This document shows, piece after piece, positions 8,749-26,382 of a stretch of DNA of 26,382 bases. The stretch comes from a virus. Within the stretch, counting starts at the first letter, position 1; each line of letters begins with the position of its first letter. The translations under genes and the position numbers were made by a program. The stretch spans positions 1 through 26,382 of the IMG/VR virus record IMGVR_UViG_3300027848_001004; one strand, 5' to 3'. The notes below the pieces were generated by a model. That model had not been told where the DNA came from. It searched no databases and saw only the letters and a program-made list of their open reading frames with translations.

Positions 8749-9204
8749 ATGACGCAAACCAGCGCCATGAATGCAGAACAGACGACGTCACCCACCGGAA
8801 AGCGCGCGCGACGCTTGATCGGTGCCGCGCTGCTGGGGGTCCTCGCCAGCTTCCTTTCGTGGCATGGCTCCGCGTTCGCACAATCGAATACTGTCAGCGG
8901 GACGGTGAGCCGTGTCACGGACGGAGACACATTCCAGATCCGCGGGCTAGATCGTGCAATCCGTGTCTGGGGGCTTGATGCACCTGAACGCAATGAGGTC
9001 GGTGCGGCTGCGGCAACAACCACCATGACCCGACTGGTTTCTGGACAAGACCTGACCTGCCGCGTTCGCGACATTGATCGATACGGTCGCATTGTCGGTC
9101 AGTGCTTTCTCCCAGATGGCCGGGATATCGCTGCGGAAATGATCCGCGCAGGTGTCGCAACTGAATACTGTCGGTTCTCCGGCGGCTATTACCGGACCTG
9201 CTGA
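8749..9204 (+). CDS. Secreted thermonuclease (staphylococcal-nuclease-like)
   Basis: A small Ca2+-dependent nuclease of the SNase/TNase fold, 151 residues. Residues 1-45 hold a basic start (KRARR) and hydrophobic core (LIGAALLGVLASFL) ending in AFAQ, so the protein is exported or anchored. The catalytic set of staphylococcal nuclease can be matched: D58/D60 in VTDGDTF, R72 and D77/E80 in IRVWGLDAPE, R114 in DRYGR. The C-terminus TEYCRFSGGYYRTC is common in alphaproteobacterial short TNases and may form a disulfide. ATG 8749 lacks a clear ribosome binding site; ATG 8767 is the alternative. It lies on the strand opposite to the late genes, between tail tube and tail terminator, and converges on the latter with 7 bases between stops. 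This looks like a moron gene with its own promoter. Confidence 0.85.
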   Translation: MTQTSAMNAEQTTSPTGKRARRLIGAALLGVLASFLSWHGSAFAQSNTVSGTVSRVTDGDTFQIRGLDRAIRVWGLDAPERNEVGAAAATTTMTRLVSGQDLTCRVRDIDRYGRIVGQCFLPDGRDIAAEMIRAGVATEYCRFSGGYYRTC

Positions 9205-9715: not shown

Positions 9716-10551
9716 GGTCTGTTGACATTCACTGGAGTCGGATGACGGTTGCTGCGAGTGCAATGAAGGCGCTGAAACTGGTGTCAGTTTTGCAGCATCG
9801 GGTGGCGATACCCCTGTATTCCTTAAGCTTTCCAAAGAAGTTCTCGATCAGATGCCGCCACTTGTAGGTATCGCGGTCGAACTCGGCGGGAAAGCGGCGG
9901 TTAGATTTGGGCGGGATGACTGCCTCAATCCTTGCCTCCGCCAGTGCCTCGCGCAGCCAATTCGCATCGAATGCCCTATCCGCGAGGAGCTTCCCGCAGG
10001 ACAGACCTTCGATCAGCGCTGCCGTGCCCCGCAAGTCGTGGGCCTGTCCAGGCAGCAGCCGGAAGTCGATCAGATTGCCGAGCGCGTCGGTCAGTGCCAT
10101 GATCTTGGTGGTCACGCCGCCGCGAGAGCGCCCGATCGCCTGATTTTGAGTCCCCCTTTTGCGCCCTGACCGTGCCGGTGGACTTTGACGATGGTGCCGT
10201 CGATCATCGTGTATTCGAAGTCTGAATCTTCTGCCAACGCCCTGAACATACGATAGAAAGCATCTGCTTTCACCCACCTGCGAAACCGCTTGAATACCGA
10301 ATTCCACTTGCCGAAATCTTCGGGCAGATCGCGCCAGGGGCAGCCCGTGCGGGCAATCCACAGCACCGCCTCAACGAAAAGACGAGGGTCGGGTCCGGTG
10401 CGGCCGGGGTCGCATGCACGGCCAAGACAGTGCGGAGCGATGGTTGCCCACTGGGCGTCGGTCAAAGTAGTGCGGATCAAGGTTGCCTCCCATGTTGGCA
10501 ACAGTGAATCAGTCATTGCGAGATTTGGGAATCATCAAACGCCAACACGCC
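9716..10551 (-). mobile_element. IS5-family (IS427-like) insertion sequence
   Basis: An 836-base element bounded on both sides by CTAG (9712-9715 and 10552-10555), as expected for a target duplication of this group. The ends read inward from each side match imperfectly: GGTCTGTTGACATT on the left and GGCGTGTTGGCGTT on the right, 10 of 14 bases. Inside is a two-frame DDE transposase on the minus strand. The right-hand CTAG supplies the TAG stop of the WYL regulator, so the insertion leaves that gene intact. Divergence of the two ends suggests the copy is not very recent, or that the ends are naturally imperfect. Confidence 0.85.
9729..10516 (-). CDS. IS5-family transposase, two frames joined by -1 frameshift
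   Basis: DDE transposase of the inserted element. The first frame (10516-10112) starts [23 protein letters not shown]; a start at the internal TTG before [10 protein letters not shown] is possible and more usual. It carries the DUF4096-type N-terminal domain and the first catalytic aspartate in [13 protein letters not shown]. The second frame (open to 9729) carries the second aspartate in [12 protein letters not shown] and the glutamate in [20 protein letters not shown]. The frames join where the minus strand reads GCAAAAGGGGGACTC at about 10162-10148: a -1 slip on the A4G5 run yields HGQGAKGG then [16 protein letters not shown], the usual IS427-type junction. All three catalytic residues are present, so the transposase is probably functional if the slip occurs. 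Confidence 0.87.
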
Positions 10552-11274
10552 CTAGCGAGGCAAATCGCTATATGGGCAGACGTCGTCTTCGAATGGGACA
10601 TGGCGCTGCCGAAACTTCAAGCCTTCGATCGGTTCAGGCTTGCTGATCCTGTCCATGCGGAAATGCCGAAAATCGTCTCGCACAGGATCCCATGCGACCA
10701 GATACCAGAGGGGCGACAGAATCAGCATTGCTTGCGGTTCTACGTCACGGCTTGTCTGCAGTCCTTTGGCGTCGCGGTAATTGAACCTCAGTTGAAGGCG
10801 CTGCAGGAATGCTGTCTCAAAGGCAGGTAACAAATCCGGATCGATTGACCCCATTTCCGACAAGTCCTGAAGCGGCGAAAGCTTTCCAACATGTAGGCAG
10901 TCCAGAAACCGGCGCAGATCGCGCACCTTTTCGGGTGGAAGGGCCCTCTCAATCTTCGAAAGCCCGGCATCCGCCAGCCCCGAAAACGGCAGATTTCCAG
11001 CCGCACGCATCGCCGATACACTGATCAGAAGCGCGAAGACCTCGGCCACCGCAAGCCGCGCCGTTGTCTGGACCGACTGTGGATCAAGTTGCAGACCTCC
11101 GCCACGCCCGGGCTCGGAATGAATGACGAAGCCTTGGTCACGCAGCTCACTTATGTCGCGTAGAACCGTGCGCCTCGAGGCTCCGACTTCTCCAACAAGC
11201 TCATCTATCGTCGCCGTTCCCTTGCGGCGGAGGCTGCGCACGATGGCATCATGGCGGGCGCGAATGTTCATGTC
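10552..11274 (-). CDS. WYL-domain transcriptional regulator (YafY/DeoR-like HTH)
   Basis: DNA-binding regulator of 240 residues. ATG 11274 (MNIRARHDAIVRSLRRKG) is preferred over the longer ATG 11313 because the winged helix-turn-helix normally starts here. Residues 1-60 form the HTH (TIDELVGEVGASRRTVLRDISELRDQGF), and the C-terminal half is a WYL domain with LSPLWYLVAWDPVRDDFRHFRMDRI, where the conserved W-Y-L triad and the arginines of the ligand pocket are visible. The gene stands divergent to the RidA-like gene with 85 bases between starts, which hold an inverted repeat at 11293-11311. This is the usual layout of a regulator controlling its neighbour. The stop codon TAG lies within the CTAG target of the IS. 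Confidence 0.88.
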   Translation of the reverse strand, partial: DMNIRARHDAIVRSLRRKGTATIDELVGEVGASRRTVLRDISELRDQGFVIHSEPGRGGGLQLDPQSVQTTARLAVAEVFALLISVSAMRAAGNLPFSGLADAGLSKIERALPPEKVRDLRRFLDCLHVGKLSPLQDLSEMGSIDPDLLPAFETAFLQRLQLRFNYRDAKGLQTSRDVEPQAMLILSPLWYLVAWDPVRDDFRHFRMDRISKPEPIEGLKFRQRHVPFEDDVCPYSDLPR

Positions 11275-11292
11275 TGGCACTATAGCATGTTT

Positions 11293-11311
11293 GGTGACAA
11301 AAAATGGCACC
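11293..11311. promoter_or_regulatory. Candidate operator between WYL regulator and RidA-like gene
   Basis: GGTGACA-AAAAA-TGGCACC is an inverted repeat with 7-base arms (one mismatched pair) around a 5-base A run. A second copy of TGGCAC stands at 11276-11281, beside the regulator start. The site lies between the two divergent starts. It could bind the WYL regulator and control both genes. Core promoter elements are not certain. Confidence 0.4.
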
Positions 11312-11359
11312 ATTTCGAATTAGGCGGGTGCGGCAACTGTCATCAAGGAGAAACCGACA

Positions 11360-11755
11360 ATGCAACGCACTCCCGTAAACCCCTGGGACTGGTCTTTAAA
11401 GCTCGGATACAACCAAGCCGAGATCATCGAAGGCAGCTCACGCCAATTGATTTGCGCGGGTCAAACAGCCGTCGATGCTGATGGCAATCCTCAGCACCCC
11501 GGCGACATGCGAGGCCAGATCAGCCTTGCTTTGGACAACCTGGAGTCCGTCCTCGCCAAGGCGAATATGGATCTTCGCAACGTCGTGCGGCTAGGCGTCT
11601 ACACTACCGACGTAGATGAGGCCCTGAAAAACTTCGACCTACTCGGCATGCGCTTCGGGCCGATCCAGTGTGCACCACCGATGACACTGCTTGGCGTTAC
11701 GCGGCTCGCGAATCCAGGCTTGCTGTTCGAAATCGAAGCGATCGCCGCAGGTTGA
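11360..11755 (+). CDS. RidA/YjgF-family protein, lacking the usual ligand-binding arginine
   Basis: A member of the Rid superfamily, 131 residues, near the usual length of about 130. AAGGAG (11345-11350) precedes ATG 11360. Family features include ICAGQTAVDADGNPQHPGD, DLRNVVRLGVYTTDVDE, and the C-terminal LFEIEAIAAG. RidA proteins deaminate reactive enamine/imine intermediates such as 2-aminoacrylate, using an arginine in a P-x-R-[ST] stretch shortly before the last strand. Here that place reads CAPPMTLLGVTRL, with methionine where arginine is expected. It therefore belongs more likely to a Rid subgroup without canonical imine deaminase activity. The gene is divergent to the WYL regulator and sits, with it and an IS, between DUF6441 and tail terminator genes, opposite to late transcription. 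Confidence 0.88.
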   Translation: MQRTPVNPWDWSLKLGYNQAEIIEGSSRQLICAGQTAVDADGNPQHPGDMRGQISLALDNLESVLAKANMDLRNVVRLGVYTTDVDEALKNFDLLGMRFGPIQCAPPMTLLGVTRLANPGLLFEIEAIAAG

Positions 11756-17517: not shown

Positions 17518-19554
17518 TCATTCCATGTATTTCGGCGTGCTGATCTTCCAGCCACGCCGCCGGGGTGTTGCGATACGTCCAGCCTCTGGTGCGGACGGCT
17601 TCTCTGGATCAGTGCTTGGTGGTGCCACGGCGACGGTCTCCACCCCGGCCTGTTTCTCCAGCTGCCGCCACATTCGCTCGTCGAAGCGATCTGCGCCGAG
17701 GATCCAGGCGGCGGCGCGGGCATAGACGCGGGTATCAAGCGCCTCGTTGCGCGCGCGCAGCTTCTGCCATTCCTGTCGGGAATAGCCGCGCTTGTTGCGG
17801 ACCGTGACCAGCTGCTCGGCCACCAGCTGTTTCAGCCATTCGCTGTCAGCCCAGTCCGGCAGGTGGATCGTGCCGGCCGGGATCGGCGCTTCCGGTTCCG
17901 CTGGCCGCTCCAATCGCAGATACCGATAGGTCTCGGCCTTGAAGGTGGCAGTGGCCACGGTCCAGAGCCGGGCGCCGCGTTTCAGCTTCCTTCCGTTCAC
18001 CGTGGCATCGACAAAGGTCGGCCCTGAGACTGGCGTGGCCCGGTTGAACCCTTCCATGCCCTTCACGGGGGCGACCTGCGCGATGCCTTGCTTGCGGGCC
18101 CAGCCATAAACGGCAGCGGACTCGTAGCCGGTGTCGATGGCGAGTTTTGCCAATGTCATGAGAGCGCCGTTCTCATGCGTCCAGGTCTGGCCAAGAAGAC
18201 CCGTCAGCTTGTCCCAACAGGCAGGATCATCCGGCCCGCCGGGAATGACGATGTGATCGATGAGCCAGCTTGTCCCACCCCGGCCCCAGGCCCAGACATC
18301 AACCTCGATCCGGTCCTTCTGGACGTCGGCACCGGCCGTCAGGAACAGCCCGTTCGCTGGGATCTGCGCCGGGAACGCCACGCGTCGATCCGCCAACCGC
18401 TGCCATTCCGGGGCCTCACCGCTCTCGACCCAGGTCTCGCCCAAGAGCGTGTTGCGTGCTGCGCGCAGAATCTCATCCGAGCCTTGCGCCGCCAGCCAAT
18501 CGCGCGCGATCTGTTCCCAGCTTTTCCAGCCGATTGGTGAGTACAGCGCCGAGAGGTGGAAGCCGATCGCCTTTGGGTTGGCGGACACGGCTGTCGCCCG
18601 CCATTCGCCCTTTGCCAGCATGTCGGTCTTGTGGTGCTCGGCGATCGGCTTCTCGCAGCCCGCGCAATGATAGACGGCTGTTTCCGGCAGGCCCTTGTCC
18701 CAGCGCAGGCGCTCAAACTGCAGCCACTGCATCGCCCCGCACTGCGGGCAGGGGACAAAGTACCGGCGCTGGTCGGAGGCCTCAAACTCCCGCTCAATGC
18801 GCGACAACCCCCGGATTGTCGGGGTTGAGACCATGAACACCTTGCGTCGATGCGCGAAGGTTGTGGTGCGGGCCTCGGCCAGCGTGACCGGATCGCCTTC
18901 CTCATCGGCTGAGGCCGGATAGGCATCGACCTCGTCCAGAAACACATAACGCGCGGGCATCGAGCGCAGGCCTGTGGCCGAGTTCGCACCGGTCAGCACC
19001 AGGATGCCGCCGGGGAATTCCTTCGACAGCATCGAGTTCCCGGCGTCGCGTGAGCGCGCCGGTTGCACGCGTTCCTTCAGCGCCGGGCTGTCTTCAATCA
19101 GCGGGTCAATCCGACCGCGCGATGTGCGTTTTGCCATCTCCAAAGTCGGCAGCACCGCAAGCATCGGCCCGGGCGCATGGTGGATGACAAAGCCGATCCA
19201 GTTGTTGCCTGCCTCGGTGGCGCCGACCTGGGCGGCTTTCATGAACGTCACACGCTGCGCCGGGTGGCTGGGCGACAGTGCATCCATGATCTCGCGCAGA
19301 TACGGCGTGCGGGCCGTGCGATATTGCCCCGGTTCCGCGCTAGCGCGTGACGACAGCTTGCGATGCACGTCCGCCCATTGGGATACCGTCAGGTCAGGAT
19401 CTGGCCGCATGCCCCGCCGCCAGGACCGCAGGATATCCTCGGCCCCGTCAAAGGCGAGGTCGAGCCCGTCTGTCAGCTGATCTTCGGTTAGATCGCCGTC
19501 GTTACCCGAGGTTGACCCGGAGATCGGCCAAGGCGGTGAGCTGCTTTCGGTCAT
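17518..19554 (-). CDS. Terminase large subunit (GpA family)
   Basis: ATP-driven DNA packaging motor with endonuclease, 678 residues, the usual length for GpA. The ATPase N-terminal half has a Walker-A-like loop in MKAAQVGATEAGNNW (about 105-119) and Walker B VFLDEVDAYP (204-213), followed by the coupling motif MVSTPT. A zinc-like pair CPQC (269-272) and CAGC (297-300) lies between the two domains. The nuclease half includes TAGADVQKDRIEVDVWAWG and LAIDTGYESAAVYGW, as in other GpA proteins. The ATG overlaps the small subunit gene by 53 bases; a start further downstream cannot be excluded. The GpA type normally pairs with cos-type packaging. Confidence 0.95.
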   Translation of the reverse strand: MTESSSPPWPISGSTSGNDGDLTEDQLTDGLDLAFDGAEDILRSWRRGMRPDPDLTVSQWADVHRKLSSRASAEPGQYRTARTPYLREIMDALSPSHPAQRVTFMKAAQVGATEAGNNWIGFVIHHAPGPMLAVLPTLEMAKRTSRGRIDPLIEDSPALKERVQPARSRDAGNSMLSKEFPGGILVLTGANSATGLRSMPARYVFLDEVDAYPASADEEGDPVTLAEARTTTFAHRRKVFMVSTPTIRGLSRIEREFEASDQRRYFVPCPQCGAMQWLQFERLRWDKGLPETAVYHCAGCEKPIAEHHKTDMLAKGEWRATAVSANPKAIGFHLSALYSPIGWKSWEQIARDWLAAQGSDEILRAARNTLLGETWVESGEAPEWQRLADRRVAFPAQIPANGLFLTAGADVQKDRIEVDVWAWGRGGTSWLIDHIVIPGGPDDPACWDKLTGLLGQTWTHENGALMTLAKLAIDTGYESAAVYGWARKQGIAQVAPVKGMEGFNRATPVSGPTFVDATVNGRKLKRGARLWTVATATFKAETYRYLRLERPAEPEAPIPAGTIHLPDWADSEWLKQLVAEQLVTVRNKRGYSRQEWQKLRARNEALDTRVYARAAAWILGADRFDERMWRQLEKQAGVETVAVAPPSTDPEKPSAPEAGRIATPRRRGWKISTPKYME

Positions 19555-20068
19555 GGGTTTCCAGCGCCCTCTGCAGGATCGCAGTCTCGATCGTCACGGG
19601 CACGCCCGATGCCTTCTCCATCTCTGCGGATATTTGTGCGGCCATGAGGGCTGCCACGCGGGTGGGCCAGGTGACCCAGACATCGCGTTCCTGGCGCGCC
19701 AGACGGAACACCAGCGTCTCCGCCCGCGCCCGATCCACAAGCGTGCCCTTCTTTTTCTGGATCGACAGCTGGCGTTCCTGCGCCTGATACACCGTCAGCG
19801 CGGTGCGCGCCTTCAGATAGGAGGTGCTGTCGCCCGGTCCTGAGACTGTATTGCCCTCGTTCGAGGCTCCGCTACTGCCCCCAAAGCCACCCTTTGATCG
19901 CATTTGCTGATCGGGATCTGTCATCGCAACCCTGCGCGCATCCGAGGCGGCCGCGTTGATTGATCCATCGGCAAACAGCACCAGACGGCCGGTCTTGCGG
20001 GCCTTTTGCAAGGCGCCGCGTGACAGGCCGGAATGGGTCGCATAGGCGCGTTCACTTATACCTTCCAT
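19502..20068 (-). CDS. Terminase small subunit (Nu1-like)
   Basis: DNA-recognition subunit of the packaging enzyme, 188 residues. The first 50 residues (MEGISERAYATHSGLSRGALQKARKTGRLVLFADGSINA) form a winged-helix domain of the type in Nu1/HTH_51 small terminases. A low-complexity linker (GGFGGSSGASNEG) follows. The C-terminal part YLKARTALTVYQAQERQLSIQKKKGTLVDRARAETLVFRLARQERD is the oligomerisation and large-subunit binding region seen in this family. It is the first gene of the late operon. GAGGAT is the nearest ribosome binding element, about 13 bases from ATG 20068. The upstream 130 bases are AT-rich and shared with a plus-strand gene run. Confidence 0.85.
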   Translation of the reverse strand: MEGISERAYATHSGLSRGALQKARKTGRLVLFADGSINAAASDARRVAMTDPDQQMRSKGGFGGSSGASNEGNTVSGPGDSTSYLKARTALTVYQAQERQLSIQKKKGTLVDRARAETLVFRLARQERDVWVTWPTRVAALMAAQISAEMEKASGVPVTIETAILQRALETHDRKQLTALADLRVNLG

Positions 20069-23280: not shown

Positions 23281-24604
23281 TCAGTTCGGAGCATTCGTGG
23301 CCTTCCTGCCCGTCGCCATTTCCCACCGTCGCACGGCCACGTCGCAATAGACCGGGTCCAGATCCATCGCAAAGCAGCGCCGCCAGCTGCGTTCGGCGGC
23401 GACCAGCTGGGTGCCAGAACCGCAGAACGGCTCGTAGATCAGATCGCCCGGATCCGAGAACGCGGTCAGCACTGCCTCGACCAGTGCAACCGGGAACACG
23501 GCCGGGTGTGATCCCGCAGCACCGAGCCCTCCCTTGTGCCGCATGATCCGGAAGACGCTATCGGGGATGCGGTGGCTTTGGATCGCGTTGCCGGTGCCGG
23601 TCTTGGCATGGACGGTGCCGTCGGCCCCGCGCAGTCCACCGCCGCCAAGGGTTTCGCCCGCGTGCTTGGATGGGACGGTCTTGTGCGGCTTGCGGGGCGC
23701 GCGGTTGAAGTGGAAAATGAACTCGTGCGAAGGGGCCAGACGGCCGTTCCAGTCGCCCGGCAAGCCCGGGCCCTGATCCCAGACATACCAGCCAAAGCGT
23801 CGCCAGCCAGAGCTGCGCATCCATTCGACCCATCCAATAGGGCTGCCACTCACTGTCGCGATGCACGAGACCGAGGTTGACCAGCAGCTGCGCGTCGGCC
23901 GTGACCGGGGCGGCAGTGAACACGCCCTGCATCAGCGCATCCCAGTCGCCGACCTTCTCCTTCGCCGCGCCGTAGTCGCGCTGCTGGGCATAGGGCGGCG
24001 AGGTGAACATCAGCGTCGCTTGTTCGCCCTGCATCAGCTTGGCCACGGCGGCGGGGTCGGTGGCGTCGCCACAGCACAGGCGGTGTTTGCCCAGCGCCCA
24101 AATATCGCCCGGGCGGGTGATGGGATCGGCTGGCGGTTCGGGAATGGCGTCGGCGTCGTCGTCAGAAATCACCGGGCGGTCGTCCGCGTCTGCCAGCAGG
24201 GCGTCCAGTTCATCCTCGGGGATCCCGATCAGCCCGAGATCGAAATCCTCGGCCAGCAGCGCCTGCAATTCTTGCAGCAGCAGGGCCTCGTCCCAGCAGC
24301 CCAATTCGGTCAGCTTATTGTCGGCGATCCGATAAGCCCGGCGCTGCGCCAAGGTCAGATGACCTAGCACGATGACCGGAGCCTCGGTTAGCCCGAGGTG
24401 GGCAGCGGCCAGGACGCGACCATGGCCAGCAATCAACTCCCCATCTGCCGCGACCAGCACTGGCACGGTCCACCCAAACTCGGCCATGCTGGCGGCGATC
24501 TTCGCCACCTGATCGGCGTCATGGGTCTTGGCGTTGCGGGCGTAGGGTTTCAGCCGGGCGAGCGGCCAGTGTTCGATCCGCCCGGGCAGCAGGGGCGCGT
24601 TCAT
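23281..24604 (-). pseudogene. ParB-domain/DNA methyltransferase fusion, frameshifted
   Basis: Second of two tandem ParB-methyltransferase genes, whose ATG overlaps the stop of its neighbour (ATGA). Residues 1-100 form a ParB/Srx-like domain (GHGRVLAAAHLGL, RRAYRIADNKLTELG). A methyltransferase follows with catalytic motif TSPPYAQQRDYG in the first frame and the S-adenosylmethionine motif EPFCGSGTQLVAAE in another frame. The frames meet near 23831-23836, where the minus strand reads TATTGGATGGGTCGAATGG: removing one base restores ...EWQPYW-GWVEWMRSSGWRRFGWYVWDQGPG. Uncorrected, the first frame continues in non-native, arginine-rich sequence to 23558. A corrected protein would have about 440 residues, comparable to its neighbour. 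It is probably inactive unless the shift is a sequencing error or is bypassed. SPPY would favour cytosine-N4 or adenine-N6 methylation. Confidence 0.82.
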
Positions 24605-25860
24605 CCCGCCAGCCTCTTCGCCTTCAGATCGGCGAAGGTCTCGCCCGTTTCTGCCAGTACAGCATTGGCGCCGGTGAATTGCTGCCAGCGCTCAACGGCT
24701 ACATCGACATATGTGGGATTCAACTCGATCCCGAAGCAAACGCGCCCGGTGGTTTCCGCCGCGATCAGCGTGGTGCCCGATCCCATGAACGGCTCAAACA
24801 CCGCCTGGCCCGGGCTGGAGTTGTTCAGGATCGGACGGCGCATGCATTCGACCGGCTTTTGCGTGCCGTGCACGGTGGCCGCGTCCTGGTCCTTGCCGGA
24901 GATGTTCCACAGCGTCGTTTGCTTTCGGTCGCCCGCCCAATGGCCTTTGCCGGTCTTTTTGACCGCATACCAGCAGGGCTCATGCTGCCAGTGGTAATCG
25001 CCCCGGCTCAGGACGAGGCGATCCTTTGCCCAGATGATCTGCGAGCGGACGTTGAAGCCAGCCGCCATGAGGCTTTCGGCCACCGTCGCCGCATGCAGCG
25101 CGCCGTGCCAGACGTAAGCCACGTCGCCGGGGAACAGCGCCCAAGCCTCGCGCCAGTCGGCGCGATCATCGTTCATCACCTTGCCGGTGCGTTTGGTTTT
25201 GGCCGCGCCCACCTGGTTACGCCAGGAGGGATCATACTCGACGCCATAAGGCGGATCGGTCACCATCAGCAAAGGGCGAACATCGCCCAGCAGCCGCCCG
25301 ACCACATCGGCGGAGGTGCTGTCACCGCAGATCAGACTGTGCGATCCCAGCTGCCATAGATCGCCAGCCACCGAGACCGGCATGACTGGTGGTTCGGGGA
25401 TATCGTCTTCGCCCTCGACTGCACCGCCTTCTACCTGATCCGGGTCGCGCAGCAGGGCATCCAGGTCCTCGTCGGCGATCCCGAGCAGCGACAGATCGAA
25501 ATCATCGGCCAGCAGCCCCGCGATCTCGTCGCGCAGCATGGCGTCGTCCCATTCGCCAAGTTCCGTTAACTTATTGTCGGCGATGCGATAGGCGCGGCGT
25601 TCGGCCTCGTCGAGATGGCTCAGCCGGATCACCGGCACATCCTTCAGCCCCAGCATCGCCGCCGCCAGCACCCGACCATGCCCCGCGATCAGCTCGCCGT
25701 CATCGGCCACCATGCAGGGCACTGTCCAGCCGAACTTCGCCATGCTGGCGGCGATCTTTGCCACCTGGTCCGTGCCATGGATCTTGGCGTTGCGGGCATA
25801 GGGGCGCAGCCGGTCAATCGGCCAAGTCTCGATCTGGCTCGGCGCAAAGACCAGGTCCAT
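24601..25860 (-). CDS. ParB-domain/DNA methyltransferase fusion (DPPY type)
   Basis: Intact orphan DNA methyltransferase of 419 residues with an N-terminal ParB/Srx-like domain (PIDRLRPYARNAKIHGTDQ, GHGRVLAAAMLGL at 60-72, RRAYRIADNKLTELG). The catalytic motif DPPYG stands at 202-206 and the S-adenosylmethionine motif FEPFMGSGTTLIAAE at about 355-369; this order (catalytic before cofactor) is that of beta-class N6-adenine/N4-cytosine enzymes such as CcrM. VHGTQKPVECM between them is also usual. No restriction gene is adjacent, so it is likely a phage orphan enzyme that protects or regulates phage DNA. ATG 25860 lacks a strong ribosome binding site. A hairpin with a T run lies in its leader at 25954-25983. 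Confidence 0.92.
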   Translation of the reverse strand: MDLVFAPSQIETWPIDRLRPYARNAKIHGTDQVAKIAASMAKFGWTVPCMVADDGELIAGHGRVLAAAMLGLKDVPVIRLSHLDEAERRAYRIADNKLTELGEWDDAMLRDEIAGLLADDFDLSLLGIADEDLDALLRDPDQVEGGAVEGEDDIPEPPVMPVSVAGDLWQLGSHSLICGDSTSADVVGRLLGDVRPLLMVTDPPYGVEYDPSWRNQVGAAKTKRTGKVMNDDRADWREAWALFPGDVAYVWHGALHAATVAESLMAAGFNVRSQIIWAKDRLVLSRGDYHWQHEPCWYAVKKTGKGHWAGDRKQTTLWNISGKDQDAATVHGTQKPVECMRRPILNNSSPGQAVFEPFMGSGTTLIAAETTGRVCFGIELNPTYVDVAVERWQQFTGANAVLAETGETFADLKAKRLAG

Positions 25861-25953
25861 GGAACGGTTCTCATTTGGGGCAGGGCGGACGTGCCGATGC
25901 GCGCGGGCAACATGTCCAGCGACAGGATCGGGGTCAGCGATGTGGGGGAAACG

Positions 25954-25983
25954 AAAACGCCCGCGAGGGGATACCTGCGGGCG
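25954..25983 (-). terminator. Terminator-like hairpin in the leader of the methyltransferase pair
   Basis: On the minus strand CGCCCGC and GCGGGCG (25983-25977 and 25964-25958) enclose a 12-base loop and are followed directly by TTTTCGTTT. It lies about 95 bases before the methyltransferase start. A TTGACA element stands further upstream at 26031-26026 on the same strand. It may end transcription entering from the right, or act as an attenuator. Confidence 0.45.
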
Positions 25984-26093
25984 CTATTCTTCGATGATCA
26001 ATAGGTAGGTCAAGGGGGCTAGAAATGTCAACGCAAAATGTGAATCGGAGTCACATGCTTCTTGCCTGGCTTTCAATGTGGCTCTTGGCCAGG

Positions 26094-26239
26094 GTGGCTT
26101 CCTCAAACTGGCTAAGGTGGCTTCCAAAAGGAAGCCACCTTAGCCAGCGAGGTGAGCGGGTAAGCCTCTGTTATTGTGATAAAGTTCTGACCAGAACGGC
26201 GCAGGTGGCTTCCAAGTGGCTTCCCCGGTGAAAAAGCCA
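26094..26239. repeat. Cluster of GTGGCTTCC repeats with a perfect long hairpin
   Basis: GTGGCTTCC occurs at 26094, 26117, 26205 and 26216 on the plus strand, and in inverted form at 26130; a partial copy GTGGCTC stands at 26078, and AAGCCAC at 26233 pairs with the last direct copy. Positions 26108-26125 (CTGGCTAAGGTGGCTTCC) are perfectly complementary to 26130-26147 around an AAAA loop: an 18-bp arm without mismatch. GTTCTG-AC-CAGAAC at 26184-26197 is a further short palindrome. The stretch from 25861 to 26298 has no convincing gene. The repeats resemble iterons or a protein-binding control region. Confidence 0.7.
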
Positions 26240-26298
26240 CGCGCTAGCGAAATGCCGCGCTGCGCCCCCCCGCATACGTCCGAGGTTGGGAAGGAACC

Positions 26299-26382
26299 AT
26301 GCCAAGGGGGGGGCGACGCACTCAGCCCTTTGCTGTCAGTTGCAAGAACCTCGGCCCTCCCGAGAATGGTCGATCCGACTGG
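26299..26382 (+). CDS. Start of an unidentified gene running off the right edge (partial)
   Basis: AAGGAA at 26291-26296 precedes ATG 26299, which opens 28 codons without stop to the window end. The product begins MPRGGRRTQPFAVSCKNLG. The run of eight Gs near its start could invite sequencing or replication slippage, so the frame is not fully secure. No family is recognisable from so few residues. Confidence 0.4.
   Translation, partial: MPRGGRRTQPFAVSCKNLGPPENGRSDW

Follow-up and report, generated by a model that had tools for sequence, protein, structure and literature searches.

Repeats at the right end of the window

The window (26,382 bp, an entire IMG/VR virus record) carries a cluster of short repeats and a perfect hairpin near its right end, and the question is what these elements are for. 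The initial annotation had described four direct copies and one inverted copy of a 9-mer within 131 bases, and they were found exactly so: GTGGCTTCC is present on the plus strand at 26094-26102, 26117-26125, 26205-26213 and 26216-26224, and on the minus strand at 26130-26138. The hairpin of 18 pairs with a four-base loop was also present; its arms (26108-26125 and 26130-26147) were 100% complementary and separated by a centre of 4 nt. That this is more order than chance would give was borne out, because the whole 26,382-bp window contained five copies of GTGGCTTCC, none of them outside 26094-26224, against 0.21 expected, and none of 100 dinucleotide shuffles reached five copies. The core of the interval first proposed (26078-26239) was correct, but its start at 26078 added only degenerate half-matches, and the feature extends to 26298, taking in the predicted cosN and the cosQ-like heptamer.

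Four functions had been suggested for this region: a packaging site, a replication origin, a partition site, and a control region for the gene starting at 26299. Only the packaging site was upheld. The repeats are very probably the cosB part of a lambda-type cos region that occupies 26094-26298 on the minus strand, and this is the best explanation of the locus. Four lines of evidence agree on it: the repeats lie at fixed distances from the predicted cosN, the site matches the ends mapped in RcC phages, its layout resembles that of lambda, and it is conserved among 87 relatives. The word iteron used in the initial annotation was not suitable, as the repeats resemble terminase R sites.

Predicted cos region on the minus strand

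The predicted elements are as follows, with plus-signed distances counted from the predicted cut.

26292-26298, minus strand: cosQ-like heptamer GGTTCCT, first base 28 nt from the predicted cut; the lambda heptamer is GGGTCCT, at 30 nt.
26260-26270, minus strand: predicted cosN, TATGCG^GGGGGGCGCAG^CGCG, with an 11-nt 5' cohesive end, matched by alignment to the ends of the RcKemmy and RcDormio records.
26242-26259, minus strand: conserved block immediately within the left end, CGCGGCATTTCGCTAGCG; the lambda equivalent is CGCGGGTTTTCGCTA.
26216-26224, minus strand: R-like site 1, GGAAGCCAC, +47 to +55; counterparts are the lambda R3 core (+54 to +59) and the first RcKemmy repeat (+47).
26205-26213, minus strand: R-like site 2, GGAAGCCAC, in the same orientation as site 1 and 11 bp beyond it, +58 to +66.
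26161-26173, minus strand: IHF-like position (I1 analogue), TAACAGAGGCTTA with 2 mismatches, at +98, before the inverted copy.
26130-26138, plus strand: R-like site 3, inverted copy, +133 to +141; counterpart is lambda R2, also inverted (core +114 to +119).
26117-26125, minus strand: R-like site 4, +146 to +154; counterpart is lambda R1 (core +156 to +161).
26094-26102, minus strand: R-like site 5, +169 to +177.
26108-26147, strand-neutral: perfect inverted repeat of 18 bp, made of R-like sites 3 and 4 plus flanks.

The junction on the minus strand reads ...GTATGCG GGGGGGCGCAG CGCG..., and GGAAGCCAC begins 47 bp inside it. The nicks were predicted at 26271/26270 on the minus strand and 26259/26260 on the plus strand, and the sequence has CG at both of them (CG^GGGGGGCGCAG^CG), in the window as in most relatives. 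The heptamer GGTTCCT upstream of the predicted cosN is a cosQ-like element, and the sites at +47, +58, +133 (inverted), +146 and +169 have the form of a complex cosB. The overhang was predicted to be 11 bases, as in the RcC phages, and alignment with lambda requires a 1-nt gap. The site was not classified as a strict lambda-like cos because the predicted overhang is 11 bases and not 12. For this phage itself, cleavage, the binding of the terminase small subunit (TerS) and of IHF, the exact nicks and the packaging direction are what we infer from these sequence features.

Comparison with Rhodobacter capsulatus RcC phages

Among isolated phages, the large terminases closest to that of the window, about 60% identical, were those of the RcC phages, whose virion DNA ends in 5' overhangs of 11 bases, as established from read ends and stops (PMC8601537, Table 3). 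Both RcKemmy and RcDormio have records that end in ...CTATGCG/GGGGGCGGAAGCGCG (the slash marks the record end), with three GTTTCCAC repeats that start 47 bp inside. Alignment of the window junction with the RcC junction gave a score of 53, while the maximum among shuffled sequences was 44 (0/2000 shuffles reached the score). The two have in common the TATGCG/GGGGG.. junction, the 11-nt overhang, the CGCG that follows, repeats from +47, and the order of the left end, which runs from cos to a ParB gene, opposite-strand genes, TerS and the terminase large subunit (TerL). However, the RcC phages have three direct GTTTCCAC repeats, with no inverted copy seen; their TerS is only about 32-35% identical, and their annotated ParB protein is short and has no methyltransferase fusion. 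The deposited RcOceanus record begins elsewhere, at its ParB gene, which counts against the cos reading. The record of Aurantimonas AmM-1 gives no evidence on ends because it starts at the TerS ATG.

Comparison with lambda, N15 and Paracoccus loci

In lambda cos, R2 is opposed to R3 and R1, IHF lies between R3 and R2, and CG is present at the nicks; cosQ is defined, and the right half of the overhang is variable among lambda relatives (PMC4669245). Alignment of the lambda and window junctions scored 38 against a shuffle mean of 18.8, a score reached by 2/2000 shuffles, and it covered cosQ, the nick flanks, CGCGG..TTTCGCTA and the R site at about +50. The direct alignment of RcC and lambda ends was not significant (460/2000 shuffles). 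The order in lambda was that of the window: cosQ, cosN, the conserved block, an R site at about +50, the IHF position (IHF-like in the window), an inverted R site and a further R site. The surroundings of cosN were similar, the 5' overhang was G-rich in its left half in both, and both have terminases of the gpA and Nu1 PHROG families. Lambda has GGGTCCT at -30 and a 12-nt overhang followed by CGCGGGTTTTCGCTA, whereas the window has GGTTCCT at -28 and a predicted 11-nt overhang. There are three lambda R cores (+54, +114 inverted, +156; GTTTCC) and five R-like sites in the window (core G(C/A)TTCC). Two arrangements in the window differ from lambda: a second direct copy that follows the first at 11 bp, and two closely opposed sites with 4 bp between them. 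Its cos region is separated from TerS by about 6 kb containing ParB-methyltransferase genes, while in lambda TerS follows directly.

The simple cosB of N15 shares with the window the cosQ/cosN principle and has an R site close to where R3 lies (PMC4669245). A single R site is critical in N15, in contrast to the complex cosB of several sites in the window. The ParB-Tls locus of Paracoccus prophages resembles the window in having ParB-fused methyltransferase genes before the terminase genes; in the available part of that source the locus is described for its genes, with no cos site (PMC6536676). The same part reports that some mitomycin-induced Paracoccus phages, which are not known to carry the site of the window, lack cohesive ends, and calls them headful (PMC6536676), a point against the cos reading.

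Conservation in relatives

The initial annotation had proposed looking for the same cluster in related prophages and for its placement relative to replication genes and cos sites. The site was found again in about a hundred related virus sequences, with R-like sites next to the predicted cosN in a family of 87 relatives. Eighty relatives of the ParB-methyltransferase were collected and their upstream regions were compared; most of these carried GGAAGCCA or GGAATCCA, each in several copies. A scan of viral contigs with a cosQ-cosN pattern returned at least 119 stretches, which together with the earlier loci gave 132 distinct regions. The family of the window comprised 87 of them, which are related to each other, so that counts among them are not independent. 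R-like sites were present in these 87 relatives at 5.7 per 300 bp, against 0.043 expected from simulated sequence. The sequence (G/A)CG^GGGGGGCGCAG^CGCG was exact in 59/87, and the overhang was GGGGGGCGCAG in most relatives, with a constant left half and almost all variation in the right half. The spacing of cosQ and cosN was 13-14 nt in 126 of the 132 distinct matches, in a search whose pattern itself demanded GGTTCCT; the pattern with a spacer of 17-25 gave few matches, spread over unrelated organisms, which were taken as chance. The IHF consensus was found with at most one mismatch in 49/87 relatives, in 46 of these 49 at +90 to +99, and TATCAAAGGCTTG, perfect or near-perfect, occurred in relatives at the IHF-like position of the window (+98), which itself has 2 mismatches.

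The long hairpin was not a general property of the family. Arms of at least 15 bp were found in 3/87 relatives, and in the others the arms mostly measured 4-8 bp. By contrast, 81/87 had two opposed sites, with an inverted half-site preceding a direct one. Because long perfect pairing is rarely kept and the opposed sites are, the comparison argues for reading the hairpin as two binding sites that face each other in DNA, with no need for a folded RNA or a cruciform. The hairpin as an RNA was rejected, as perfect pairing is seldom kept among the 87 relatives. A search of Rfam with the hairpin gave no family, only sub-threshold microRNA-type matches at chance level; BLASTN of the region against phage records gave no match, and the exact hairpin pattern was not found in viral contigs.

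Other TerS lineages kept cosQ and cosN and had different repeats, of the TGCAAACC type or the GGTTTCC type. Such lineage-specific repeats fit recognition by TerS, as with lambda and 21, in a grouping of few lineages that is not statistically separated from ParB type. Contig ends of the relatives clustered near the predicted cut and not exactly at it, and for this reason the pile-up was not taken as proof of the cut. These phages and prophages have known relatives in Rhodobacterales, and hosts are known from two plasmid records only, Roseicitreum antarcticum and Paracoccus aminovorans.

Terminase and neighbouring genes

The window is a late-gene arm read leftwards. The order is a ParB-methyltransferase (25860-24601), a second ParB-methyltransferase, a small opposite-strand block, TerS, TerL, a lambda-family portal, an S49 protease and phage major capsid protein E; a long tape-measure-like ORF lies further along. 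Three of these genes are relevant to the cos region.

24601-25860, minus strand: ParB-domain DNA methyltransferase, the first gene inside the left end, in a ParB-terminase locus.
19502-20068, minus strand: TerS, phrog_57 like lambda Nu1 and RcKemmy TerS, candidate reader of the R-like sites.
17518-19554, minus strand: TerL, lambda gpA family with ATPase and endonuclease, candidate cosN nuclease.

TerL was placed in the gpA family by PF05876 (E 7e-102) and PF20454 (E 4e-90). The AlphaFold2 model of TerS (mean pLDDT 78) predicted a helix-turn-helix at the N-terminus as well as an extended helical region. Foldseek with this model gave no significant PDB match, only insignificant ones to MerR/Xis-like wHTH proteins; a PDB profile search with TerS gave nothing significant, and hhalign of TerS against Nu1 alone was not significant.

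The ATG at 26299 adjoins cosQ, and its frame leaves the window after 28 codons. This ATG was kept in 44/87 relatives, in frames of 5 to more than 300 codons with unrelated sequences. Control of a gene at 26299 was unsupported, because no gene is conserved there.

Several other observations were made in the window. The second ParB-methyltransferase (23281-24604) appears frameshifted: its 348-aa frame loses methyltransferase similarity after about residue 215, C-terminal methyltransferase-like motifs are in the overlapping frame 23281-23853, and plasmid pRA03 has at this position a longer gene annotated as a single methyltransferase. The palindrome ATGTGAATCGGAGTCACAT at 26038-26056 contains two GANTC (CcrM-type methylation) sites beside a -35-like TTGACA of the leftward methyltransferase promoter region and may be a methylation-sensitive operator; it was also present in the relatives L020, L037, L049, L067 and L071. 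Soon after the promoter-like elements, a terminator-like GC hairpin and a T run (GCGCCCGCAGG...CCTCGCGGGCGTTTT, minus strand, 25952-25985), present also in the relatives examined, form a possible leader attenuator. A DDE transposase in two overlapping frames (9729-11755), IS5-like by Pfam match, is inserted in the head-tail gene region and is followed by ORFs that by eye resemble a WYL/HTH-like regulator and a RidA-like protein. A plus-strand ORF opposite the late genes (8749-9204) resembles, by eye, a secreted thermonuclease-type (SNase) protein.

Alternative explanations

The repeats could be a parS-like partition or loading site recognised by the ParB domain of the adjacent methyltransferase, instead of or besides a packaging site. 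Going inward from the end, the next gene indeed has a ParB domain in nearly all relatives and in the RcC phages, and clustering of ParB-methyltransferases with terminase genes is known (PMC6536676). However, the repeats hold lambda-like distances to the predicted cosN, and they remain beside cosN in L196, L205 and L252, where the ParB gene is 1.8-2.5 kb off. In the 9 loci of TerS group T, cosQ-cosN lies immediately before TerS, and no ParB gene was seen. A partition site was neither needed nor supported, and we give this explanation a slight chance. It is highly improbable that the cluster is a control region or an RNA leader (an attenuator or antiterminator hairpin) for the leftward ParB-methyltransferase operon, although it may have a secondary regulatory role. 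A leftward promoter-like TTGACA, a GANTC palindrome and a terminator-like hairpin (about 25952-25985) are all placed just downstream and recur in relatives examined, but the promoter elements sit outside the repeat cluster, the arm of the 18-bp hairpin is at most 8 bp in most relatives, and Rfam had no matching family.

The 9-mers, arranged in tandem and in both orientations in a non-coding stretch, do look like the iterons of an origin bound by an initiator. Against this, the repeats are anchored at a fixed distance to a sequence that matches mapped phage ends, and the lambda layout fits without any origin. The neighbours are ParB-methyltransferases and packaging and head genes. Scans of window proteins with Pfam and PHROGs recognised neither an adjacent initiator nor any other replication protein; they covered one side of cos, as the window does not reach beyond it. 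A replication origin was likewise neither needed nor supported, and we regard it as next to impossible.

Proposed function and significance

In the packaging-site reading, TerS (gene 20068-19502) would bind the five GGAAGCCAC/GTGGCTTCC R sites of cosB, and IHF would probably bend the DNA between the first two R-like sites and the inverted one. The bound TerS would position the nuclease of the large subunit to nick the two strands of concatemeric phage DNA at offset positions around GGGGGGCGCAG (26260-26270). Nicking would leave 11-nt 5' cohesive ends, and GGTTCCT (cosQ) would serve the final cut. cosB would then lie at the left end of the virion DNA, ahead of the genes for the ParB-methyltransferase and the terminase, and this end would be the first to enter the capsid. 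We also consider, as a rather unlikely extension, that this is a distinct cosB, in which tandem R sites spaced by one helical turn and the closely opposed pair (4-bp centre) would allow dimers of TerS to bind along one face or head-to-head, with no need for the strict IHF-bent R3-R2 geometry of lambda, and in which the neighbouring ParB-fused methyltransferase would also load at cos and mark or protect the DNA end during packaging.

This cosB layout is not described in the available parts of the literature found on these phages. With the predicted cosQ-cosN-cosB, the genome end could be recognised from sequence in a large group of phages, prophages included, that is mostly seen only in contigs, so that ends and orientation could be called without virion DNA. 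Terminase lineages with a common cosN but different R repeats would also form a natural data set for co-change between the TerS recognition helix and the R sites.
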